In this document: one piece after another, positions 2,904 to 15,781 of the stretch
Layout: every line of letters begins with the position of its first letter
How positions within the stretch are numbered: position 1 is the stretch's first letter
Virus record (IMG/VR): IMGVR_UViG_3300042526_000039
Coordinates: 1 to 29,323 of that record
DNA: 29,323 nt
From: a virus
Strand: one strand, 5' to 3'
Translations under genes and position numbers: made by a program
Notes under the pieces: generated by a model
Databases searched by the model: none
What the model was told of the DNA's origin: nothing
The model's input: only the letters and a program-made list of their open reading frames with translations

Positions 2904-3959
2904 TCAACAAGCGCCACCGCCACGCTTTTTGGGCACTGGTGCAACCGTTACAGACTCTTTAGTCTTGGTCACACTCTCACCCTTTGGCATGAAGTAGTCC
3001 TTCGCTTTGCCTGCCAGTTCCTTCACCATGCTCAGAGGATTCATGGCCTCCTCCAACTCACGACTTGCTTTGTCGCTCACAGATTTTGGGTCTACTTTGT
3101 TTTTGTCAAAGAAAGACTCATTTGGAGTTGGAGAACCACCGCTCTGCATCTTCTGGTACTTGCTGTACTTCAAGTTGGAGTCAGCCTTGGCCTGTTTCAT
3201 AGCCGTAGCGTTCTCCGCCCCAAAGTTAGCTTGCAAGCGGCCTTCGGCAGGAGTTACCTTGCCACCGCTTTTATATGTACCCGAAAGCTGATTGATGCTT
3301 ACTGGAGGTGAAGGTTTTTTAGCGCCTTGGGGCATCGCGACGGGCTTGCCTGAATCAACAGTTCCCCCCGTCGCGTAGGCTTTTTTTGAGGCTTTACCCC
3401 CCATTTTGTAGCCACCGCCGTTGCCTAAAGCAACTCCACCAGTTTTGTAACCGCCTTGGCCGTCCGTTACGCCACCAGTCTTGTAGCCGCCGCCGTTGCC
3501 AAGAGCAACACCGCCAGTTTTAAGACCTTTGTGGCCCTTAGAAGCCGCCTTAGAAGCGTGTTTGGTCAATTTCTTGTCCACACCCTTAATGGCGTTCATT
3601 TCGGCTTTGTGAGCGGCTTTGGACTCTCCACCTTCAGCCTTGCCACCTTTTTTCATTGGTGTCGAAGGCATCGAGGGGTTGCCAATAGGCATCTCAGGCT
3701 TCTTTGCCATCATTGCCTTGCGGCGTGAGGCCATTGACGGCTTGCCGGGGGCGCGAACAGGTGCATTGACGGCAGGACGGCCAATTAAGGCTGGAGTCCC
3801 TGCCAATGCTTCCATTGCACCACCGCCCATAGCCATCTTCTTGTGACCACCTTCTGCCATGCCACCTTTTTTCATGTTGACATGACCGCCTTTTTTGAGT
3901 TTCAGCATTACTGAAGGCTCAGTGGTCTCCATCTTCACCATTGGTTTGAATTGACCCAT
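2904..3959 (-). CDS. Lys/Gly-rich KGG-motif repeat protein, probable internal virion protein
   Basis: 351 aa, very basic and low in complexity. Short KGG/TGG/EGG units recur all along it: KKGGHV and KKGGMAEGG near residues 22-38, KKGGKAEGG near 103-111, a tandem Gly-Asn-Gly block at 147-189, then ATGG and KSGGK. The C-terminal third (SRELEEAMNPLSMVKELAGK) is more ordinary and probably helical. I do not recognise a named family, though similar KxGG-rich proteins recur in uncultured freshwater phages I recall. Its place between decoration-like genes, and good Shine-Dalgarno TAAGGAG, argue for a virion or DNA-condensing protein. Function unknown; motif pattern directly visible. Confidence 0.65.
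   Translation of the reverse strand: MGQFKPMVKMETTEPSVMLKLKKGGHVNMKKGGMAEGGHKKMAMGGGAMEALAGTPALIGRPAVNAPVRAPGKPSMASRRKAMMAKKPEMPIGNPSMPSTPMKKGGKAEGGESKAAHKAEMNAIKGVDKKLTKHASKAASKGHKGLKTGGVALGNGGGYKTGGVTDGQGGYKTGGVALGNGGGYKMGGKASKKAYATGGTVDSGKPVAMPQGAKKPSPPVSINQLSGTYKSGGKVTPAEGRLQANFGAENATAMKQAKADSNLKYSKYQKMQSGGSPTPNESFFDKNKVDPKSVSDKASRELEEAMNPLSMVKELAGKAKDYFMPKGESVTKTKESVTVAPVPKKRGGGAC
3393..3521 (-). repeat. Gly-rich tandem repeat inside the KGG protein
   Basis: Codes for residues about 147-189: three related units of the form K(T/M)GGVALGNGGGY or KTGGVTDGQGGY. The first and third units are nearly identical at the protein level but differ at synonymous sites in the DNA, so the repeat is old or selected rather than freshly copied. 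Confidence 0.8.
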
Positions 3960-6537: not shown

Positions 6538-7521
6538 TTAACTCCTATAACCTTGATTTTGTTTGGCTTCCAATGCGTAGCGTCGAATCATCTTCGCTCG
6601 TTTATCGGCGTCATCCCACATTCCAGCATCTTTCATGGCTTGGACTTGATCGCGTGTTAACGCAAACTGGTTTTTTCCAATCGCACTACTCGAAGAGCTT
6701 TCGCGGCCTGAACTTGTCACAACATTCCTTGGTCTAGAATTCCGAATCGGTTTCTCATTGGTATCGCCAGTATAACGGTGTGGCAAATACTTTAGCAAGC
6801 GGTTGTCAAGTTCTTCCCAATACTGAGGCGTTTTTGGGTTCCAACCCTCTTCAGCCATCGCTTGATCAATGGTCAAAGCGACCTTTGAGTCAGGGTCTTT
6901 GCCATTTGGGTCGTACCACTGGTTGTTTTGCATCCAATTGGTTGCATGGCGCTGTAGTTGCGGGTCAGGAGCGCGAATTGTGCGTTCACGCTGGGGTGCT
7001 GTGGCCTTTTTAATCACATTGTCAAGGGCTTCATACTCCCTGCGGGCGTCAAACCACAATTCCTGCGCCGCAGTCTGCATTTTGCCGTTGCCAGTCTGCG
7101 TTGCCTCGGCCATTTTTTCCTTGGCAAACAAAATCTTGTTGTGCTTTTCCTGTCTGGCCGCATTCAAGCGTGCAAGGTCGCTTCCTTGCGCCTTTTTCTC
7201 CAAAACCGACAATCTTTCAATCAATTCTTGGTTTTGGCGGCTCAAAAAGTCCAGTTTGTGGTCTTTTTCGGTCGAAACCTGCTTGTGGTACTCCTTGCGC
7301 TTGACCCGTTTGAGGCGTTTTTGCGCTCTTAGGGCTTCAGCTTGGGGGTCAACACCGCCGCCATCAGCCATTTCGGCTTGTCTGGCGCGTTCATCGGCCT
7401 CGTCGGAGTCTTCGTTCTCGTTTCGCGTTGGTGATGGGATGCTTGGAGGTAAATCGATGGTTGCAGAACCGTCTTTTTCCTCTTGGATCACAATCACTTC
7501 TTGTTCTGTTTCGGTACTCAT
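6538..7521 (-). CDS. Scaffold-like head assembly protein
   Basis: 327 aa. Acidic, disordered N-terminus (about residues 1-65, with EEVIVIQ-like and DSDEADERARQAEM patches), then a long charged coiled coil (about 70-170: QNQELIERLSVLEKKAQGSD, RLNAARQEKHNKILFAKEKM), and a C-terminal globular part with WDDADKRAKMIRRYAL. Such an acidic, coiled-coil, portal-to-coat-located protein is typical of phage scaffolds, which shape the procapsid and leave before or during packaging. Its ATG overlaps the stop of the GroES-like gene (ATGA). The identification is by context and composition, not by a sequence signature. Confidence 0.7.
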   Translation of the reverse strand: MSTETEQEVIVIQEEKDGSATIDLPPSIPSPTRNENEDSDEADERARQAEMADGGGVDPQAEALRAQKRLKRVKRKEYHKQVSTEKDHKLDFLSRQNQELIERLSVLEKKAQGSDLARLNAARQEKHNKILFAKEKMAEATQTGNGKMQTAAQELWFDARREYEALDNVIKKATAPQRERTIRAPDPQLQRHATNWMQNNQWYDPNGKDPDSKVALTIDQAMAEEGWNPKTPQYWEELDNRLLKYLPHRYTGDTNEKPIRNSRPRNVVTSSGRESSSSSAIGKNQFALTRDQVQAMKDAGMWDDADKRAKMIRRYALEAKQNQGYRS

Positions 7522-7952
7522 AGGAATGCCTTCATTGCAAGTGGGTTGCCAGTCAATTTGGCAATAACTTCATGGTCGTTGAGAACCATAAAGAGGGCTG
7601 GGTCATCATCACGGGTCTCGCCGGGGACTGGAACCTCCCAACGATCACCGCCCCACTTAGGGACGCGGATGAAATCACCAACCTCGCACCAAGTGCCCTC
7701 TACCCATGACTCCATCGTGTCGCGCTTTTTAAACGCCAATGGGCCAAGAGAGATCACCTTTGCGACCATGTTCTGCCACTTCTCGGTTTCTTTGGTCTCT
7801 GAGACCAAAATAATCCCGGCACTCGTTACCGTCTTCTTCGTTCGACGCAGTTGTACTAAAACTCTTGCGCCAAGGGGTATCGCACCGGGGTCTACAGCAG
7901 GAAAGGCTTCCCGCAAATCGGCTGAATCACCAGCCACCGTGCTATCTGTCAT
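7518..7952 (-). CDS. GroES-like co-chaperonin (Cpn10 family)
   Basis: 144 aa. Residues 26-133 follow the Cpn10 pattern: IPLGARVLVQLRR (beta strand), a flexible loop with the hydrophobic tripeptide-like GIIL (residues 46-49) at the position where GroES has GIVL for GroEL contact, VAKVISLGP, then WCEVGDFIRVPKWGGDRWEV and a C-terminal MVLNDHEVIAKL equivalent to the GroES ILRENDILA strand. Cpn10 lids close the GroEL chamber; phage versions such as T4 gp31 adapt it to fold the coat protein. It lies upstream of scaffold and coat genes, which fits that job. The N-terminal 25 residues are an extension over host GroES. Fairly sure of the family, role inferred. Confidence 0.8.
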   Translation of the reverse strand: MTDSTVAGDSADLREAFPAVDPGAIPLGARVLVQLRRTKKTVTSAGIILVSETKETEKWQNMVAKVISLGPLAFKKRDTMESWVEGTWCEVGDFIRVPKWGGDRWEVPVPGETRDDDPALFMVLNDHEVIAKLTGNPLAMKAFL

Positions 7953-8304: not shown

Positions 8305-10812
8305 TTATTTTCCTAAGTTTCGTTGTGTGAGGTTTTGCAGTTGGACAGCAGTCTGCTCCTGCTCTTGTCGAAGTTTGACCTCGTCCACGGTCAACTCGGC
8401 AGTCTTCATTCGCTCTGTCGTGAGGTTGTCCTCGGCGTTCATCGCGATCTTGATCTGACGATCCTTGTCCTTCTGTCCCATTTCCGCTTGGAACTTCTGC
8501 GTATCAAAGGCAAGGCGTGCTTGATCTTCGGCGGCGCGGCGTTGTGTCTCGGCCATAGAAGCCTGCAACACGGCTTGTGCCTCGCCGTCCATTGGCGGTG
8601 CTGGTGGCTTGAACTGTTGCATCATCTGGCCCAACTGCTCCAGCGCAGGCAACAAGCCTTTGAACACTTCTTCGGTGTCCATTGACAGGTGTGTAGAGGC
8701 CAGAGCCACCGCGTTGTCGATCTGCTTGACCAACTTGCTGTCCTCGTACTTACCAAACTGCACGCCTGTCTCGCCCTGCACATAGGTGGACATCTGGCTG
8801 GTGTACCAGAGCATCATGTGCTGCTTGATGTGCTCCAACACATTTGGGATGTACTTTGGCGCAATCAAGCGGTTTGACCCCAAGGCGGGATCGAGCGCAA
8901 AAGCCAAGTGGGTTTGAATGTGAGCCAACTGATCCTGACGCGGGTAAGCAAAGGCTGGTCGGCCCAACGCCATAGCAGAATTCTCGTCTGCGGCATTCAT
9001 CTCCGCAGGCTTGCTGGCATTTGGTATTAACTCGTTTACATTCGGAATCTTCAACTGCTTGAGCATTCGGTTCACGACGGCACGCTGGTCAAAAATCTGC
9101 GGGAACTGCGCAGACAACTGCAACACAGACTGCATCTGGGCCACACGCTGTGTCTCAGAGAAGATGTGGGGATCACTGACAGGCACAATGTCGCTGTTGC
9201 GCTTGAAGTCTTCCTTTTTGACGGGCAACTCTGCCACCATGTCGCCGCGCTTTTGCTCATCCAAGTACCAACGGTTCAAGCGGCCAATAATGCCAATGAC
9301 TCGGCGCTGGCTTTCGTGCAAGCGTGCGTGGATGGAGGAGAACACTACAGCGCCCTGCTCAATCAATGCCTGCGTGGTTCCCACGGGCATCGTAGACTTG
9401 GCATCGGCAATCTTCTCTTCGGCGGTTGTCACCACGCCTTTGGCGGCGTCGGTGATAAAGCCCAACAACTGGAACAGCACAGGCGACGGCGGGTTGAAGG
9501 GCATAGGCATTGCAATCTTGCGGATGTCATCCACACCGGGGGCGCTTTCCACCTCGGTCACCTGCGTTACCTCGATCTGCTGACTTGCACCAGAAATGCG
9601 GGCACCCTTCAACTTCAGCATCGTGGCCGAGTTGTTGATGTGCGCAGTGTCCAGCAAGGCCCGTAATGCACCCGTCAAGGCCGCGCTGAGACCTCCAATG
9701 AGGTGAGGTAGCCCCACAGCGTATGCGCCCCGCCAAGGGATGAATTTGAACTCGACCATCCAGTCCAGTTTTTCCATTGACTCGTCGCCCTCTTCCCAGT
9801 TGCGGTAGAGGCCAAGCACTTTGCTCTCCAACTCGTCAACCATCAAAATGTAGGGGGCCGAGTCGCCGTTGGTAATTGAGTCGTCGTCAATTGACAGCCA
9901 TGTGTGGATGTGGAACACGCGGCGCAGGCCGTCTTCGTTGTCATCCCACGACTTGCCTTCAATCTTGTTGTTGGCCTTCTCGGCGGCTGTTTGTTCTGGC
10001 TCGGCGGATGCGCGGATCAAATTGATGTCGCGGTACAGGCCACGGTCGATGCGTTGTTGCATCTCCCAGCCAGTGATGTCTTGTTGCTCTGTCACGCGCT
10101 GGGCTGTGTAGAAATTCACAGCGGCGTAAGGCAGGAGGATGTTGTCAATGGGCACAAACTCAGCGCAGGGACGGCGCTTCTTGTCGTCGTACCAAATCTT
10201 CATAAACTGTGAGCCACCAAGGGGCAACTGCGTGAGCAACTGCTCCTGCTCGTCGCGGAACTCAACCATTTGCTCGGTCAACTGCCAATTAAGGTAGTCG
10301 CGTTTGCGCTCGGCGGTCTCGGTCTTTTCTTCAGTGACCTCACCCAAAATCTTGGTGCGCACTGGGCCGTCAGGGGGGAACATCTCTTTGATGGCGCGGG
10401 CGGCAAAGTCAACGCAAGCCTCGGCCATGATGGGGTGGACAACCTTGCTGGCACCAAAGAAGTTTGCACCACCGGGGGCATCATCCCCCAAGCCCGTGCG
10501 CTTGAGACCCTCCTCGTACTGCTTGTCGCGTTTTTCGCGGGCTTCCTTGTCCTTCTCGACTAGATCGAGGTATCGCGAGCCAATCTTCTCAAGGTCAAAG
10601 ATGTTGATGGTCTCTGCAAGGTTCTCGTAAAAGTCTGGGTTTTCTTCCGGGCCTTTGAACTCGCCTAGCGTCACGATGGCCGAGCCATCCTCCAACTCCT
10701 CGACATCTTGATTCTCTTCTTCCAACTCAGCAACAGCACCGCCGTCATCAGTCATCTTCAGCCCGTCAATGAAGCGGTCTGCGTTGGGGTCGTTTGGAAA
10801 TTGGGTTGCCAT
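8305..10812 (-). CDS. Portal protein
   Basis: 835 aa, in the size class of large podoviral portals. Portals form the twelve-fold ring through which DNA enters and leaves the head. Acidic N-terminus (residues 1-70), then a core with GGANFFGASKVVHPIMAEAC (about 114-133), FAARAIKEMFPPDGPV, and QLPLGGSQFMKIWYDD, which match portal proteins I recall. A long C-terminal coiled coil (about 745-835: TQRRAAEDQARLAFDTQKFQ and beyond) fits the barrel or crown extension. It is encoded after the terminase and polyvalent genes and before scaffold and coat, the expected order. AGGA lies 8 nt before the ATG. Confident. Confidence 0.88.
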   Translation of the reverse strand: MATQFPNDPNADRFIDGLKMTDDGGAVAELEEENQDVEELEDGSAIVTLGEFKGPEENPDFYENLAETINIFDLEKIGSRYLDLVEKDKEAREKRDKQYEEGLKRTGLGDDAPGGANFFGASKVVHPIMAEACVDFAARAIKEMFPPDGPVRTKILGEVTEEKTETAERKRDYLNWQLTEQMVEFRDEQEQLLTQLPLGGSQFMKIWYDDKKRRPCAEFVPIDNILLPYAAVNFYTAQRVTEQQDITGWEMQQRIDRGLYRDINLIRASAEPEQTAAEKANNKIEGKSWDDNEDGLRRVFHIHTWLSIDDDSITNGDSAPYILMVDELESKVLGLYRNWEEGDESMEKLDWMVEFKFIPWRGAYAVGLPHLIGGLSAALTGALRALLDTAHINNSATMLKLKGARISGASQQIEVTQVTEVESAPGVDDIRKIAMPMPFNPPSPVLFQLLGFITDAAKGVVTTAEEKIADAKSTMPVGTTQALIEQGAVVFSSIHARLHESQRRVIGIIGRLNRWYLDEQKRGDMVAELPVKKEDFKRNSDIVPVSDPHIFSETQRVAQMQSVLQLSAQFPQIFDQRAVVNRMLKQLKIPNVNELIPNASKPAEMNAADENSAMALGRPAFAYPRQDQLAHIQTHLAFALDPALGSNRLIAPKYIPNVLEHIKQHMMLWYTSQMSTYVQGETGVQFGKYEDSKLVKQIDNAVALASTHLSMDTEEVFKGLLPALEQLGQMMQQFKPPAPPMDGEAQAVLQASMAETQRRAAEDQARLAFDTQKFQAEMGQKDKDRQIKIAMNAEDNLTTERMKTAELTVDEVKLRQEQEQTAVQLQNLTQRNLGK

Positions 10813-10840: not shown

Positions 10841-11164
10841 ATGCATCGATCTCGCACCATCCACGAACGCTACCCTTACTTTGCCTTTGCAACGGGGACG
10901 GGTTGGCGCGTGCTTGACTGTAAAGCCGAGGGGCGCACTTTTGTCAGTGAGGAGTACGACGATAAAGAAGATGCTTTGGTTCATGTCAAGTCTCTTAACG
11001 AACGGTACTGGTTAGAGTGGAGGGCTGGGATTGACGCCCAGATTGCGATACGGACGGCCCGCGAACAATCCGCTCCTCCGCCTTCTTCAAGCGGTTCCTC
11101 ATCTCTGTGGACTCGGCTGAAGGCGGTCTTGCGCCCATCTTTTCGTAGTCACCACGGAACATAA
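10841..11164 (+). CDS. Probable moron-like plus-strand gene of unknown function
   Basis: 107 aa, the only convincing plus-strand reading frame within the structural module. Residues 10-75 look like genuine protein (YPYFAFATGTGWRVLDCKAE, then GRTFVSEEYDDKEDALVHVK and NERYWLEWRAGID). The 182 nt between the portal start and the end of the polyvalent gene have no minus-strand gene, so this frame fills the gap. Its last 170 nt overlap the 3' end of the opposing gene. A consensus-like promoter ends seven bases upstream of the ATG. I recognise no family. Single host-effect genes with private promoters inside late operons are known as morons; that label is inference. It could also be a chance open frame. 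Confidence 0.5.
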   Translation: MHRSRTIHERYPYFAFATGTGWRVLDCKAEGRTFVSEEYDDKEDALVHVKSLNERYWLEWRAGIDAQIAIRTAREQSAPPPSSSGSSSLWTRLKAVLRPSFRSHHGT

Positions 11165-14100
11165 TGTCCTTGGTGCTGTCGGCTTTGCCAAACTGAACCT
11201 TGGCACCTTTGCCCAATATTTCATTTGCTGCTTGCGCCGCCTTCTTGTAGTCAAGCGCGTCACCCTCAAAAGGCGCGACAAACATAGAATTGTTTTTTGG
11301 ACTGTGCGTGACAATCATTCCGGGGAGCATATCGGCCAGACTCTGTATCTGCCCCTTTGTCAAACGCTCTGAGCCACCAATCATCATGGCCGTTGCATCC
11401 TTTGGATTCTTAAACATCAACGGCGTAAATTTATGCGCCGCCACCATCTCTTGACCTAACTCCTGCCCAGCGGTGCCGATGTCTGCAATCAGCCGCTTGT
11501 TAGTGGAAAGGTTGCCTGCGCGTGGAATGGTGATACCCACCATAGGGTTGGTTTCCTGCTGGCCCGCAAAGTTCTCATACAAGCCTTGGCCCAGCGTCTT
11601 TTCGGTTTTGCGACCACCCATTCGTTCCATGCTGACGGGTGCCCCTTCGCCAGAGATCATGCGCTTGGTCACTAAGTCCTTAAACTTGTCGCCGCCCTTT
11701 TGACCCAAGTCGGGGGCAACGGCCTCCATCGTCAAAGTGGCTGGTCTAAATGGTCGCTGTGCATTGGCAGACATGGTCTCTAGCCCGCCTCGGACGGTGT
11801 TTAAAGCCTCTGGTGCCTTCTTAGCCAAGTCTGCGGTTTTCTGTGCGCCTTTAATCATGCCAGTGGGCGAGAACAGGCTCAACGCCGTTTCAGTCATAGG
11901 ACGATCCTCCCCAGAGGTCACGCCGTATTTGTTCATCAGGTCTTTGATGTGTTCTGATCCAGCGAATGGCTTTTCACTCGATAACCGAGTCGGTTTCCCC
12001 ATCATGCCAGTCAGCGCGTCTACACCACCCAGACCCATGTTGATCATGTCCACAGGCAGGCCAAGTGCTGGCGCAAGAATGCCTCGGTTGCCGATGTCAG
12101 TTGCGGCGCGGGGCTTCTTGTAGGACTCGTACTCTTTCTTGCTTTGATCCATAGCCAACTTGCCCAATTGCTCGGCGATCTCTCTGGCTGTAGGCTCATC
12201 AGATGAGCCACCCTTGGACATCCGCTGAACTGGCTTGTCAAAGATGCTGGCTCTGCCACCCTCTGCCATTTTCTTTACTGGCCTACTGCTGACACGGCCA
12301 CCAAGGGCTTTGTGCATAGCGAATCGCTTGTGGAATCGGGCCATGTCCTCTGGCGACTCCTTGCTGTTGACTGCGCCGCCGTCCTTGCGCAGGAAGCCCT
12401 TGCCTGTGACCATGTCGTTCATCACCTCGGTAGGCGACTTGCCAGTCTGCTCGGCGGTGCGCTTGATCAGTCGTTCAAGGTTGTCCACATAGTTCTCTGG
12501 CTTGGTTTTGAGTGCCGTTACATCAGCGGAGCCGTACCAGCCCAAAGCCTGCGCCTCTGCTGGCTCAACACCGTGGCGCTTGGCACCGCGTTGCCACAGT
12601 TCCTCAAAGCCTGCGTACTCGGAGCCAGAGGGCGCGGCCTCCCAGAAGCCGGGACGCTGTTGCGCCTCACGCATCGACATCTCGCCACTGTTATACATCT
12701 CACGCGGCTTGTACGAGTTGATGATCTTGCCAGTCTCATCCTTCTCCACCAACTTGCTCGTCAGCCAACGCGGGTCACCCTGCTCAATGATGGGGCCACG
12801 CAGTGCGTTCACATCCACCGTCACGGGCTTGACATTACCAAGCAGGTTCTCATAGAAGGTGCCCAACTTCTTGTTTGGGGGCAGAGCGCCAGCAATGTCG
12901 CCTTGGCCGATCATCACGGCGCGGTTAAAGATGTCACCCTGCGCCAGCGATCCGTATCCTGTGGGCAACTCCACCAGTTGGCGACCTTGAGCCAGCGATG
13001 GGTCTTCCTTGAGCGCCTTTTTGAGTTTGTTCGTCAGCAGGAGTGAGTTCTCAGGCAGTTGGCCTGTCTCACTCAGGTGATACAAATACGATCCCATCTG
13101 GTTCTGTTTGTCCACTGGGTTGCGCTGGCTGGCGCTGGCAAACTGCGCCAACATCGACTCAAACTGCTCCGGGGTTCGGCCAGCATTGAGCGCTACTTGG
13201 CGTAGAGGCTCGGTGCCGTACCACTCTTGCACATTGAGGTCTTTGCCCTTGTTGATCAGGTTGTCCACCTTCTTGCGGGCCTTGGGGCTGTCAAGCAAGT
13301 CTTGCATCCGCTCGTTGTACTTGGGCGACTTGCCCTCGGCACGGGCCTTGTCCACCATTGGCATACGCGGCAAGTCCTTCTGCTCACGCAAGGTGTACAT
13401 CCCATTGTCGCGGGGCATCAGTGGCAGGCCAGTGCCTTGCGGGCGCGTCATCGGCGCTTGCTGAGACTCCAGCACATCGGCAATCTTGGACTCGCTTGCC
13501 TTCTTGGCTTGCGCCATCTCTTTAGCCTTGGTCAGAGCGCCTGTGATGCCTCTGCTTACTTTTCCTGCGTCTGCCATGTGAAGGACTCCTCCGTGAGAAT
13601 ATTTCTCTTCTGACTTCTTACCGTATGTTGGTTTCTTCGCCAACACCAACGGGCCAATCTGGATAACCTCTTCAGCGCCGTGGACTGGCTCCATTGATGC
13701 GCGGTCGTAGAAATAACCATGCCGCTCTGGATCGTATCCAACTTGCTTCCACTCTGGATGATCAAGGTACTCTTGCGCTTTGGCTACAGCGGCCTCTTCG
13801 CTCATTGGGTTCCAGTCACCTCTGATTACAGCAAACGGTGCCTTTGGGCCACCTTGCGCAACCTTCAACGCCTTATCAGGTGAGCCAATCATTGTGGCGT
13901 TCTTGACCGATGATGTCGAGCCATACACGGTTGGTTGATCCTTGCGGTGGATCGAATTTACCCAAACACCATGATCCTTGTATGCGGGAATATCTAAACG
14001 CAAATCAGCCTGTTCACCAGCGGTCATGTCTTTTGACTTGCCAAACATTGGTTTTTTATTCGCGGTCAGCGCCTTCATTGCGTCCTCAATAGTCGCGGGG

Positions 14101-14342
14101 GCTGGAACAAATGAATAGGGTGTAACAGGCTTTAATCGGGCCACCATTGCGTCATACTGAGAGGCTGTAATCTTACCCTTTGCCAGCAAATTAGCGGCTT
14201 CTGTCAACTCAGGCACCCGCTTGGTCACATCCTTGAAATTCATATCAAGACGATTGACCATAGGCTTCTCTGCCGTCGCCATCTGCTTGGCCTGCGCTAA
14301 TGCGCCAGTCATGCCCTTGCCAAGTTTGCGGAGGTCAGCCAT
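10995..14342 (-). CDS. Large polyvalent-type protein, probably injected or internal virion protein
   Basis: 1115 aa between TerL and portal. Residues 98-237 (FGKSKDMTAGEQADLRLDIP, then YKDHGVWVNSIHRK, YGSTSSVKNATM, YDPERHGYFYDRASMEPVHG and AEEVIQIGPLVLAK) resemble one of the large polyvalent protein-associated domains described in phage multi-domain proteins thought to enter the host with the DNA. Residues 5-22 and 260-277 are a duplicated helix (TGALAQAKQMA / TGALTKAKEMA). A KGG/EGG-rich linker lies near 675-715. The rest I cannot assign; no catalytic site stands out. AAGGA precedes the ATG. The last roughly 25 residues are Ser/Arg-rich and antisense to the plus-strand gene. An internal start at residue 256 is possible. 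Confidence 0.65.
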   Translation of the reverse strand: MADLRKLGKGMTGALAQAKQMATAEKPMVNRLDMNFKDVTKRVPELTEAANLLAKGKITASQYDAMVARLKPVTPYSFVPAPATIEDAMKALTANKKPMFGKSKDMTAGEQADLRLDIPAYKDHGVWVNSIHRKDQPTVYGSTSSVKNATMIGSPDKALKVAQGGPKAPFAVIRGDWNPMSEEAAVAKAQEYLDHPEWKQVGYDPERHGYFYDRASMEPVHGAEEVIQIGPLVLAKKPTYGKKSEEKYSHGGVLHMADAGKVSRGITGALTKAKEMAQAKKASESKIADVLESQQAPMTRPQGTGLPLMPRDNGMYTLREQKDLPRMPMVDKARAEGKSPKYNERMQDLLDSPKARKKVDNLINKGKDLNVQEWYGTEPLRQVALNAGRTPEQFESMLAQFASASQRNPVDKQNQMGSYLYHLSETGQLPENSLLLTNKLKKALKEDPSLAQGRQLVELPTGYGSLAQGDIFNRAVMIGQGDIAGALPPNKKLGTFYENLLGNVKPVTVDVNALRGPIIEQGDPRWLTSKLVEKDETGKIINSYKPREMYNSGEMSMREAQQRPGFWEAAPSGSEYAGFEELWQRGAKRHGVEPAEAQALGWYGSADVTALKTKPENYVDNLERLIKRTAEQTGKSPTEVMNDMVTGKGFLRKDGGAVNSKESPEDMARFHKRFAMHKALGGRVSSRPVKKMAEGGRASIFDKPVQRMSKGGSSDEPTAREIAEQLGKLAMDQSKKEYESYKKPRAATDIGNRGILAPALGLPVDMINMGLGGVDALTGMMGKPTRLSSEKPFAGSEHIKDLMNKYGVTSGEDRPMTETALSLFSPTGMIKGAQKTADLAKKAPEALNTVRGGLETMSANAQRPFRPATLTMEAVAPDLGQKGGDKFKDLVTKRMISGEGAPVSMERMGGRKTEKTLGQGLYENFAGQQETNPMVGITIPRAGNLSTNKRLIADIGTAGQELGQEMVAAHKFTPLMFKNPKDATAMMIGGSERLTKGQIQSLADMLPGMIVTHSPKNNSMFVAPFEGDALDYKKAAQAANEILGKGAKVQFGKADSTKDIMFRGDYEKMGARPPSAESTEMRNRLKKAEERIVRGPSVSQSGRQSQPSTLTSTVR
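13577..13592 (-). promoter_or_regulatory. Internal Shine-Dalgarno and ATG within the polyvalent gene
   Basis: Minus strand GGAGGAG (13592-13586), 8-nt spacer, ATG at 13577. This ATG is in frame (residue 256) and opens the sequence MADAGKVSRGITGAL, which parallels the true N-terminus MADLRKLGKGMTGAL. An 860-aa second product, or an in-frame fusion of two formerly separate genes, would explain it. Confidence 0.55.
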
Positions 14343-14350
14343 ATTGATCC

Positions 14351-15781
14351 TTATGCGGAGTACGGGTTCACCCGCTTCGGTTGGGTGAACTCCAAATAAT
14401 CGTCGTCATTATCAGGGGGTTCTGGATTGATGTCGAGCCAGTTCATGTCCTTCAATAACCGAATCGCTTGCGTTGCGCTATCGACATAGTCGTCGTGCGC
14501 CGCATCGGGGAACGCGCATATCTGGGACAGGAACCCCTCGGCCCAACTGCGGACATATCCACGGTGGGTGTCGGACTCAGGGAGCCAGACACGGCCAGTC
14601 GCGAAGATGGACGCAGTGATCTGGAGTCTTTGCATCTTGTCAGCCCTGCCGGGGTTGTACGCCCGCACAGGCAGGTGGGCATAGCGCAACTCTTGGATCA
14701 GGGAGATGCCTGCCGCCTTGTCCTCCACGAGGATCAGGTCTGGCCGCTTGGCATCGCGCCCTTCGCCATACGACACACGCCACTCCTCGATGACCTTGGG
14801 CTTGAGTTTAGGGAAGGACAGGTGTTCAGCCCAGCAGTCGATCAGAAGCACGCTCATAGGCCCGTCCTGCGGCTTGAACACGCCCCATGTGGTCATGGCC
14901 GTCGGGTCGTTGTGTTCCTTCTCACTGAAGGCGCAGTCGTAGGACTGGACAATGTACTCGAACTTGGGGAAGGGCTTGTTACCCGGCCACAGCTTGAACA
15001 TATCGCGGGACACCACCTTGCCGTCTTCCAGATCGACGATGGCACCCATCACCTCCTGCTCGTACAGCTTGGAGCCACGGTAGGTCTCCAACTGCTTCTG
15101 GAACGCCTTGTCGAGGTTCTTGGCGTTGTCGTAGGTGCTGGCGCGGGACACCACCACATCGTCACCCTCACGGCCCACCAGATCGAGGATCAAGTCCTTG
15201 GGGCGAGGTGTCGTGGTCACGATCACACGCGGGTGGCTGTGGGGCTTGTCGTCGGGCTTGATACGCAGGCCAAGCATCATGTTGTCCCATGCCTCGTTCG
15301 GGCCGAGGTATGAGAACGCTGCCAACTCATCACACCAGCAAAACGACGAGTTGATACCGCGCAGGCGGTCGTAGGAGTCAGCCGACACACCCCTGATCTT
15401 GGAGCCGTTGGACAGCCTGATCAAGTGATCCTGCTTATTGTAATCAGTTACAAGCGCCTCGGGTATGCACGCCAGCAGGCCAGATGGCCCCTCAAAGCAG
15501 GTGAACTTCAGGTCGCCACTGGTGGGGGCCAGAACGATGCTCATCGTGTTCGGGTGCGTCCACGCCCACCACCACAGGGCTTCTGCCGCACTACGGGTTT
15601 TCCCTGCCCCTCGGCCAGCCAGCATCAGGAAGACGGTGTAGTCCAGATGTAGGTCAGGCGGTATCTGGTATGCGTGCGCCTTGGCGATCCACTGCGCATG
15701 GGCGATGAAAGCGATTCGGTTATGTTCGGGCAGAGTCTCAAACTCGGCCACCGTCTGGTCATCGAACAGGTCAGCCAGCAC
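14351..15781 (-). CDS. terL: Terminase large subunit (ATPase and nuclease)
   Basis: 476 aa, the motor that pumps DNA into the head and cuts it. ATPase domain: Walker A AGRGAGKT (residues 55-62), Walker B FCWCDE (147-152), coupling motif VIVTTTP (186-192). Nuclease domain: acidic residues in SYDCAF (D282), LVEDKAAG (E353) and AHDDYVDS (D430/D431), the RNase H-like triad. All key residues are present and length is normal. The start overlaps the TerS 3' end by 11 nt; the polyvalent gene follows after 8 nt. This is the Terminase_6-like type; packaging mode (cos or headful) cannot be told from it here. Very confident. Confidence 0.95.
   Translation of the reverse strand: MLADLFDDQTVAEFETLPEHNRIAFIAHAQWIAKAHAYQIPPDLHLDYTVFLMLAGRGAGKTRSAAEALWWWAWTHPNTMSIVLAPTSGDLKFTCFEGPSGLLACIPEALVTDYNKQDHLIRLSNGSKIRGVSADSYDRLRGINSSFCWCDELAAFSYLGPNEAWDNMMLGLRIKPDDKPHSHPRVIVTTTPRPKDLILDLVGREGDDVVVSRASTYDNAKNLDKAFQKQLETYRGSKLYEQEVMGAIVDLEDGKVVSRDMFKLWPGNKPFPKFEYIVQSYDCAFSEKEHNDPTAMTTWGVFKPQDGPMSVLLIDCWAEHLSFPKLKPKVIEEWRVSYGEGRDAKRPDLILVEDKAAGISLIQELRYAHLPVRAYNPGRADKMQRLQITASIFATGRVWLPESDTHRGYVRSWAEGFLSQICAFPDAAHDDYVDSATQAIRLLKDMNWLDINPEPPDNDDDYLEFTQPKRVNPYSA

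Follow-up and report, generated by a model that had tools for sequence, protein, structure and literature searches.

The window analysed here is the whole stretch of 29,323 nucleotides in the IMG/VR virus record IMGVR_UViG_3300042526_000039, and its minus strand carries, at 10995..14342, a gene with an ATG start that encodes a modular protein of the polyvalent type (1115 aa). The gene lies between those of the terminase large subunit on its left (TerL, 14351..15781) and the portal protein on its right (8305..10812), both likewise on the minus strand. The plus strand across 10995..14342 is crowded with stop codons, and the open reading frame (ORF) runs from 14342 to 10995. It starts 8 nt past the terminase stop codon, which is overlapped by AAGGA (14348..14352, minus strand), the probable Shine-Dalgarno (SD) sequence of the real gene start.

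Along this ORF (all features on the minus strand), a gene-start leader of residues 1-26 (14265..14342), the first copy of a repeated joint, is followed by the N module (residues 27-249, 13596..14264), which has weak similarity to phage L5 gp82 and phrog_586. An internal joint (residues 250-283, 13494..13595) leads into the C1 module (residues 284-650, 12393..13493), which includes a DUF7178-like stretch. Behind it lie a second type of linker with GG motifs (residues 651-705, 12228..12392; boundaries set by us) and the C3 region (residues 706-1115, 10998..12227). Within the GGV codons of the joint's HGGVLHM stretch stands GGAGGAG (13586..13592), 8 nt ahead of an in-frame ATG (Met256, 13575..13577), a possible internal start of an 860-aa product. 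A preliminary description of this DNA had given this motif and its distance from the ATG correctly (13592..13586 and 13577..13575 in the direction of the gene), and its product sizes of 1115 and 860 aa are also right.

The same description had claimed that residues 1-22 are repeated as residues 256-277, and this duplication is borne out on the minus strand (13 of 22 residues identical). No other ungapped self-match of the protein scores as high as this one, at offset 255, whose BLOSUM62 score of 77 compares with a mean of 40 and a maximum of 75 in 200 protein shuffles. Within the protein alone the repeat is thus barely above chance, and it is the relatives that settle it, since the joint recurs there. 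A profile of the segment was found 123 times, which refutes chance self-similarity, and we give a coincidental origin of the repeat and of the SD motif a negligible probability.

Three scans of IMG/VR contigs for relatives together gave loci L001-L148: 47 loci came up with the 860-aa part as query, 48 with the 255-aa part and the best 80 of 228 with TerL. Later profile scans added C1 (best 80 of 94 loci) and N (best 80 of 414). Only loci with identical sequence stretches were merged, and the counts of intervals, arrangements and N- or C1-bearing ORFs given below therefore still include near-identical contigs. The protein of L001 is that of the window (100% over the 860-aa and 255-aa parts). 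A scan of a collection of genome contigs with the full protein returned three pattern matches and no relative. Among annotated phages, three records matched the 860-aa part and three the N part, each with less than 60% identity. Three of these six regions were inspected; in two the matching protein stands after the portal, not before it, and the third names neither TerL nor portal. Of 58 distinct complete TerL-portal intervals in the IMG/VR relatives, 55 are filled to at least 80% by one long ORF, with a median coverage of 99%, and the longest ORF measures 606-2124 aa across the listed intervals. A second, non-nested ORF was present in three cases (L045, L055 and L067).

Of 109 distinct ORF proteins, 62 contain the joint, a segment of about 39 residues; its copies number 123, of which 40 lie at gene starts and 83 are internal. 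Among the ORF proteins of at least 300 aa, it is present in 60 of 100. These counts are not phylogenetically independent. Its consensus is roughly KxKGGVLHMADAGKVTKGIxGALTKAKEMAxAxK. The profile was seeded with 19 regular-expression matches and then iterated, so that its matches, including those of the leader (1.7e-7) and of the internal joint (2.9e-19) in L001, are not independent of it. By its sequence the joint looks like a module tail followed by a gene-start leader, repeated within a cassette array that forms one ORF. Pooled joints have a pN/pS of 0.33 over 721 non-independent pairs, which indicates that the joint is constrained as protein too.

Cutting the ORFs at the joints gave 142 segments in 25 clusters, and 30 arrangements were found among 38 complete joint-bearing ORFs (a few near-identical ORFs left uncollapsed). 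For mapping in relatives, residues 1-255 of the window protein were taken as N, 256-650 as C1, 651-705 as the C2 linker and 706-1115 as C3. The N, C1 and C3 parts occur apart in relatives: C1 and C3 without N in L002, L003 and L005, and N without C1 in L049-L051. Either order of N and C1 occurs, with C1 ahead of N in L063, L035 and L037. Other stretches are interposed between the mapped pieces in L019 and L048, and the second linker is present twice in some relatives, such as L019. In L022 (4308-7932) a frame change inside C1 breaks the ORF, which is intact in the relative L013; it could be a sequencing error.

The domains of 28 proteins of our choice, the window protein included, were scanned. 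At E ≤ 0.01, ART-PolyVal was found in 14, DUF7178 in 13, Phage_L5_gp82 in six, PcfJ in three and ParB_N in one, and PHROGs further gave ParB-like, methyltransferase and endolysin families, each in one or two of the proteins. ART-PolyVal, DUF7178, PcfJ and ParB_N are combined differently across the relatives. Within the window protein, N matches Phage_L5_gp82 (PF25735) with 18.3 bits (E 0.0023), under the curated cut-off of 27 bits. DUF7178 (PF23802) scores 27.2 bits for the 860-aa part and 26.6 for the whole protein, against a cut-off of 27, and only profile positions 93-140 of 193 are covered. The structural model of N (mean pLDDT 81.9) matches viral models only, 17 of them at E ≤ 0.001. These include phage proteins that bear the names ART-PolyVal-like, PcfJ-like, zeta toxin, LT_GEWL or tail lysozyme, and small phage proteins whose folds are matched in part. 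No PDB match to N was found by model at E ≤ 0.001 or by sequence profile at E ≤ 1. The view that residues 1-255 hold the one recognisable polyvalent domain is imprecise: N resembles ART-PolyVal-like and other phage proteins in its model, but it stays under the Pfam cut-off, and the DUF7178-like stretch lies in residues 256-1115. The model of C1 is of low quality (mean pLDDT 51.8), and its PDB search gave no match at E ≤ 0.001. By profile, C1 also resembles designed ankyrin proteins (best E 0.00045), over short stretches, and we take this similarity to be spurious. C3, scanned within residues 256-1115, has no family match at E ≤ 1.

The cleanest case of exchange at a joint is that of L121 and L122. 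Before the joint 199 of 201 residues are identical and within it 37 of 37, whereas after it identity drops to 7/40, 5/40 or fewer per block; the two loci differ by one clean swap at the joint. Across the ORFs, homology breakpoints, taken as the ends of high-identity alignments, cluster at joints: 84 of 296 fall within 5 residues of one, whereas randomly drawn positions would give 5.8% (at most 10.1% in 200 draws).

A form without the cassette is provided by L002-L005, from which the N module is missing. The window's two leaders differ at 36 coding sites. In the first 20 of these, the single leader of L002, L003 and L005 is N-like at 13, C1-like at three and neither at four, and in the last 16 it is C1-like at 15 and neither at one; L004 is similar. 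Such a switch from an N-like to a C1-like leader is the expected remnant of recombination between two direct repeats. Two leader copies flank a place at which the N cassette is either present or absent. The leader switch would fit either a gain of N by the window phage or its loss by the others.

We consider it probable that the gene is of a polyvalent type that occupies a fixed TerL-portal site and carries exchangeable modules linked by a standard joint and recombining in frame. Here the joint would be a GG-rich module tail joined to a gene-start-like leader, about KxKGGVLH-MADAGKVTKGIxGALTKAKEMA, and the duplication in the window protein would represent two leader copies on either side of the N cassette. 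Homologous recombination between joints, whether of one phage or of two phages in the same cell, would add, drop or swap cassettes and keep the frame. The main product would be a single long polypeptide, which, by analogy with polyvalent proteins, may be packaged into the virion, enter the new host along with the DNA and act on it; delivery to the host is suggested by the polyvalent class, and the roles of N, C1 and C3 are likewise putative.

Several observations weigh against this explanation. The joint was not matched in 47 of the 109 ORF proteins, nor in 40 of the 100 of at least 300 aa. As many as 212 of the 296 breakpoints lie more than 5 residues from a joint and, among the 60 listed, many fall near the C1 end or in C3, so the joints are not the sole points of exchange. 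Apart from L121/L122, joints that precede different modules share at most 93% of their DNA and mostly far less; most exchanges must be old, or the joint has been kept for a role in the protein. Eighteen more informative sites upstream of the ATG reflect a shared gene-start context and give no evidence of a leader switch. Finally, no enzyme domain reaches its curated cut-off in the window protein, where DUF7178 alone just attains its own.

The preliminary description had offered two genes fused in frame as one origin of the duplication. The likeness of the joint to a module tail with a gene-start leader behind it supports a fused boundary, but two genes are too few for a cassette array in which the joint is repeated within one ORF. 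Of the 133 distinct ORFs that carry N or C1, contig ends truncate 38; the complete ones comprise 48 with N alone (708-2736 aa), 38 with C1 alone (470-1700 aa) and nine with both (853-1385 aa). No complete N-bearing ORF shorter than 708 aa was found among the loci kept (best 80 of 414 in the N scan), and N and C1 stand in the same ORF in all ten distinct loci that hold both. C1 does have a nearly separate gene: in a distant lineage, six of the 38 complete C1-only ORFs (470-482 aa) hold C1 nearly alone. In the four loci of this lineage that were inspected (L191, L195, L196 and L200), the C1 gene lies right behind another large ORF, and a TGATG stop-start overlap was read in L200, which fits the joint as a fused gene boundary. 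That two adjacent genes simply fused in recent times, in the window phage alone, would be in line with this lineage and with the form of the joint, but many other modules are separated by this joint too and no free N gene is found in the loci kept. We therefore hold such a fusion to be quite improbable, and slightly more so since the L121/L122 comparison added a case of exchange at the joint. A different explanation takes the KxGG motif of the joint as a protease site, at which the ORF product would be cut as a polyprotein into its modules. In its favour, module tails and other late proteins of the window repeatedly contain KxGG motifs, the joint is under constraint at the protein level, and embedded peptidases are thought to process polyvalent proteins (PMC5512222). 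Neither the window protein (Pfam, E ≤ 1) nor the 28 scanned proteins (Pfam and PHROGs) match a peptidase family, however, and we regard processing of this kind as rather unlikely.

The remaining alternative concerns translation: the joint ATG and its purine-rich Gly codons would start an 860-aa product without N, as in phage endolysins made as two polypeptides. SD strength was calculated as the duplex energy with an anti-SD tail. On this measure the internal SD (-9.5 kcal/mol) exceeds that of the real gene start (-6.0), and in the window gene it stands with its start codon at a domain boundary. The strongest in-frame SD-ATG of the gene is that of Met816 in the C3 region (-11.3; window about 11897, minus strand), far from any joint, with an SD-ATG of -9 or better kept at the matching place in L002, L003 and L004, and nine of the 1044 ATGs of the window (both strands) have an SD of -9.4 or better. 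SD strength alone consequently proves little. The ATG is kept in all six loci with an N-to-C1 joint (L001/window, L008, L009, L016, L030 and L043; four distinct sequences), and GGAGGAG in four of the six, or two of the four distinct sequences, the remaining two having GGCGGGG and GGCGGAAAGG. Codon choice also speaks for initiation: of 21 distinct contexts of GGV[LI]HM-type joints, 20 have GGG or GGA as the second Gly codon, compared with 37 of 218 GG[VI] that no Met closely follows, and 27 of 40 GG[GV]..HM have it compared with 19 of 158. In-frame internal starts have, moreover, been proven for some phage endolysins (PMC9430671).

Other observations point away from internal initiation. No Met is present in 14 of 71 distinct internal joints, and the joints with an ATG vary widely in SD (the Met of each was chosen by a simple rule, under which the assignment of a few joints is debatable). 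When all distinct GG dipeptides are compared, the SD is no stronger where a Met follows 3-6 residues later: energies of -9 or lower were found in 13 of 201 with such a Met and 57 of 1004 without (Fisher p 0.62), and of -7 or lower in 43 of 201 and 167 of 1004 (p 0.13). An earlier count under other rules gave mean SD values of -5.89 and -5.84 for GG with and without a following Met. An excess of SD beyond coding need is thus absent over all GG dipeptides and appears in GGV[LI]HM joints alongside equally frozen codons outside the SD. Among the GGV joints (19 distinct contexts; L013, L016, L030 and others), all 17 Ala9 codons are GCA and all 17 Val12 codons GTA. As these codons are frozen like the SD codon, a short DNA block of common descent seems to have spread and carried the SD along. 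Codons right after a start can influence initiation, so that this freezing is not conclusive against an internal start. The frozen synonymous sites near the joint ATG suggest either that a short block has spread recently or that the DNA as such is under selection. From these sequence signals, real internal initiation appears doubtful, though the most plausible of the alternatives considered. It is less likely again that the joint has both uses, as a coding homology block for the in-frame trade of predicted effector modules and as a built-in ribosome site and start that would yield nested shorter products. If true, such a double-purpose joint would allow a newly gained cassette to be expressed also from its own start.

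Elsewhere in the window, the protein encoded at 7518-7952 (minus strand) is, by the look of its sequence, presumably a GroES-type co-chaperonin. In annotated phages with a related TerL, a chaperonin gene is found in the same cluster. In Caulobacter phage RW (L279), a related TerL precedes a tRNA gene and then a single large hypothetical protein about as long as a portal, and no further large gene is annotated there between TerL and the co-chaperonin. GG motifs like those of the module tails were seen in late proteins at 2904-3959, where they are many, 1751-2077 and 1365-1748 (all minus strand); the last of these, of 127 aa, matches DUF6321.

Polyvalent proteins of phages and conjugative elements have been described as combining 2-15 disparate domains, with up to 35% being phage-encoded and probably packaged (Iyer et al. 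2017, PMC5512222), and as probably assembled from solo modules (PMC5512222). The relatives studied here are polyvalent proteins in that sense: disparate domains (ART-PolyVal, DUF7178, PcfJ and ParB_N) occur in one polypeptide, and the gene stands among late or virion genes, with TerL and portal on either side both in the window and in the 58 distinct complete intervals. Like those described in PMC5512222, they are large phage proteins of several domains, ART and ParB-like ones among them, whose architectures vary and whose genes lie near those for packaging. In contrast to that description, they have an alignable joint of about 39 residues between unrelated modules and a fixed TerL-portal site. 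The main text of PMC5512222 contains none of the terms "linker", "shuffl", "repeat" or "glycine". Our literature search found no description of the joint, a result that does not prove its absence from print.

Polyvalent proteins are known to vary, and the sections of PMC5512222 drawn on here are silent on how phages might rearrange them without losing the reading frame. With a coding joint shared at a fixed genomic site, phages would have a concrete and testable route for swapping predicted early-infection effectors, similar in effect to a cassette system, and the joint profile permits such proteins to be cut into modules, many of them without known function. Fragments of phage proteins are still being shuffled between phages (domain mosaicism; Smug et al. 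2023, PMC10684548). That work names receptor-binding proteins, endolysins, DNA polymerases and neck passage structures, and its main text has neither "polyvalent" nor "linker". The family of Mycobacterium phage L5 gp82 (PF25735, phrog_586) resembles N through a weak profile match and the partial fold matches to small phage proteins, but N falls short of its 27-bit cut-off and lies inside a large ORF in the loci examined. With endolysins that have in-frame internal starts (Pinto et al. 2022, PMC9430671), the window gene shares an internal SD and ATG at a domain boundary; two products have been proven for those endolysins, whereas here the signal is one of sequence and is partly explained by the GG codons of the joint.

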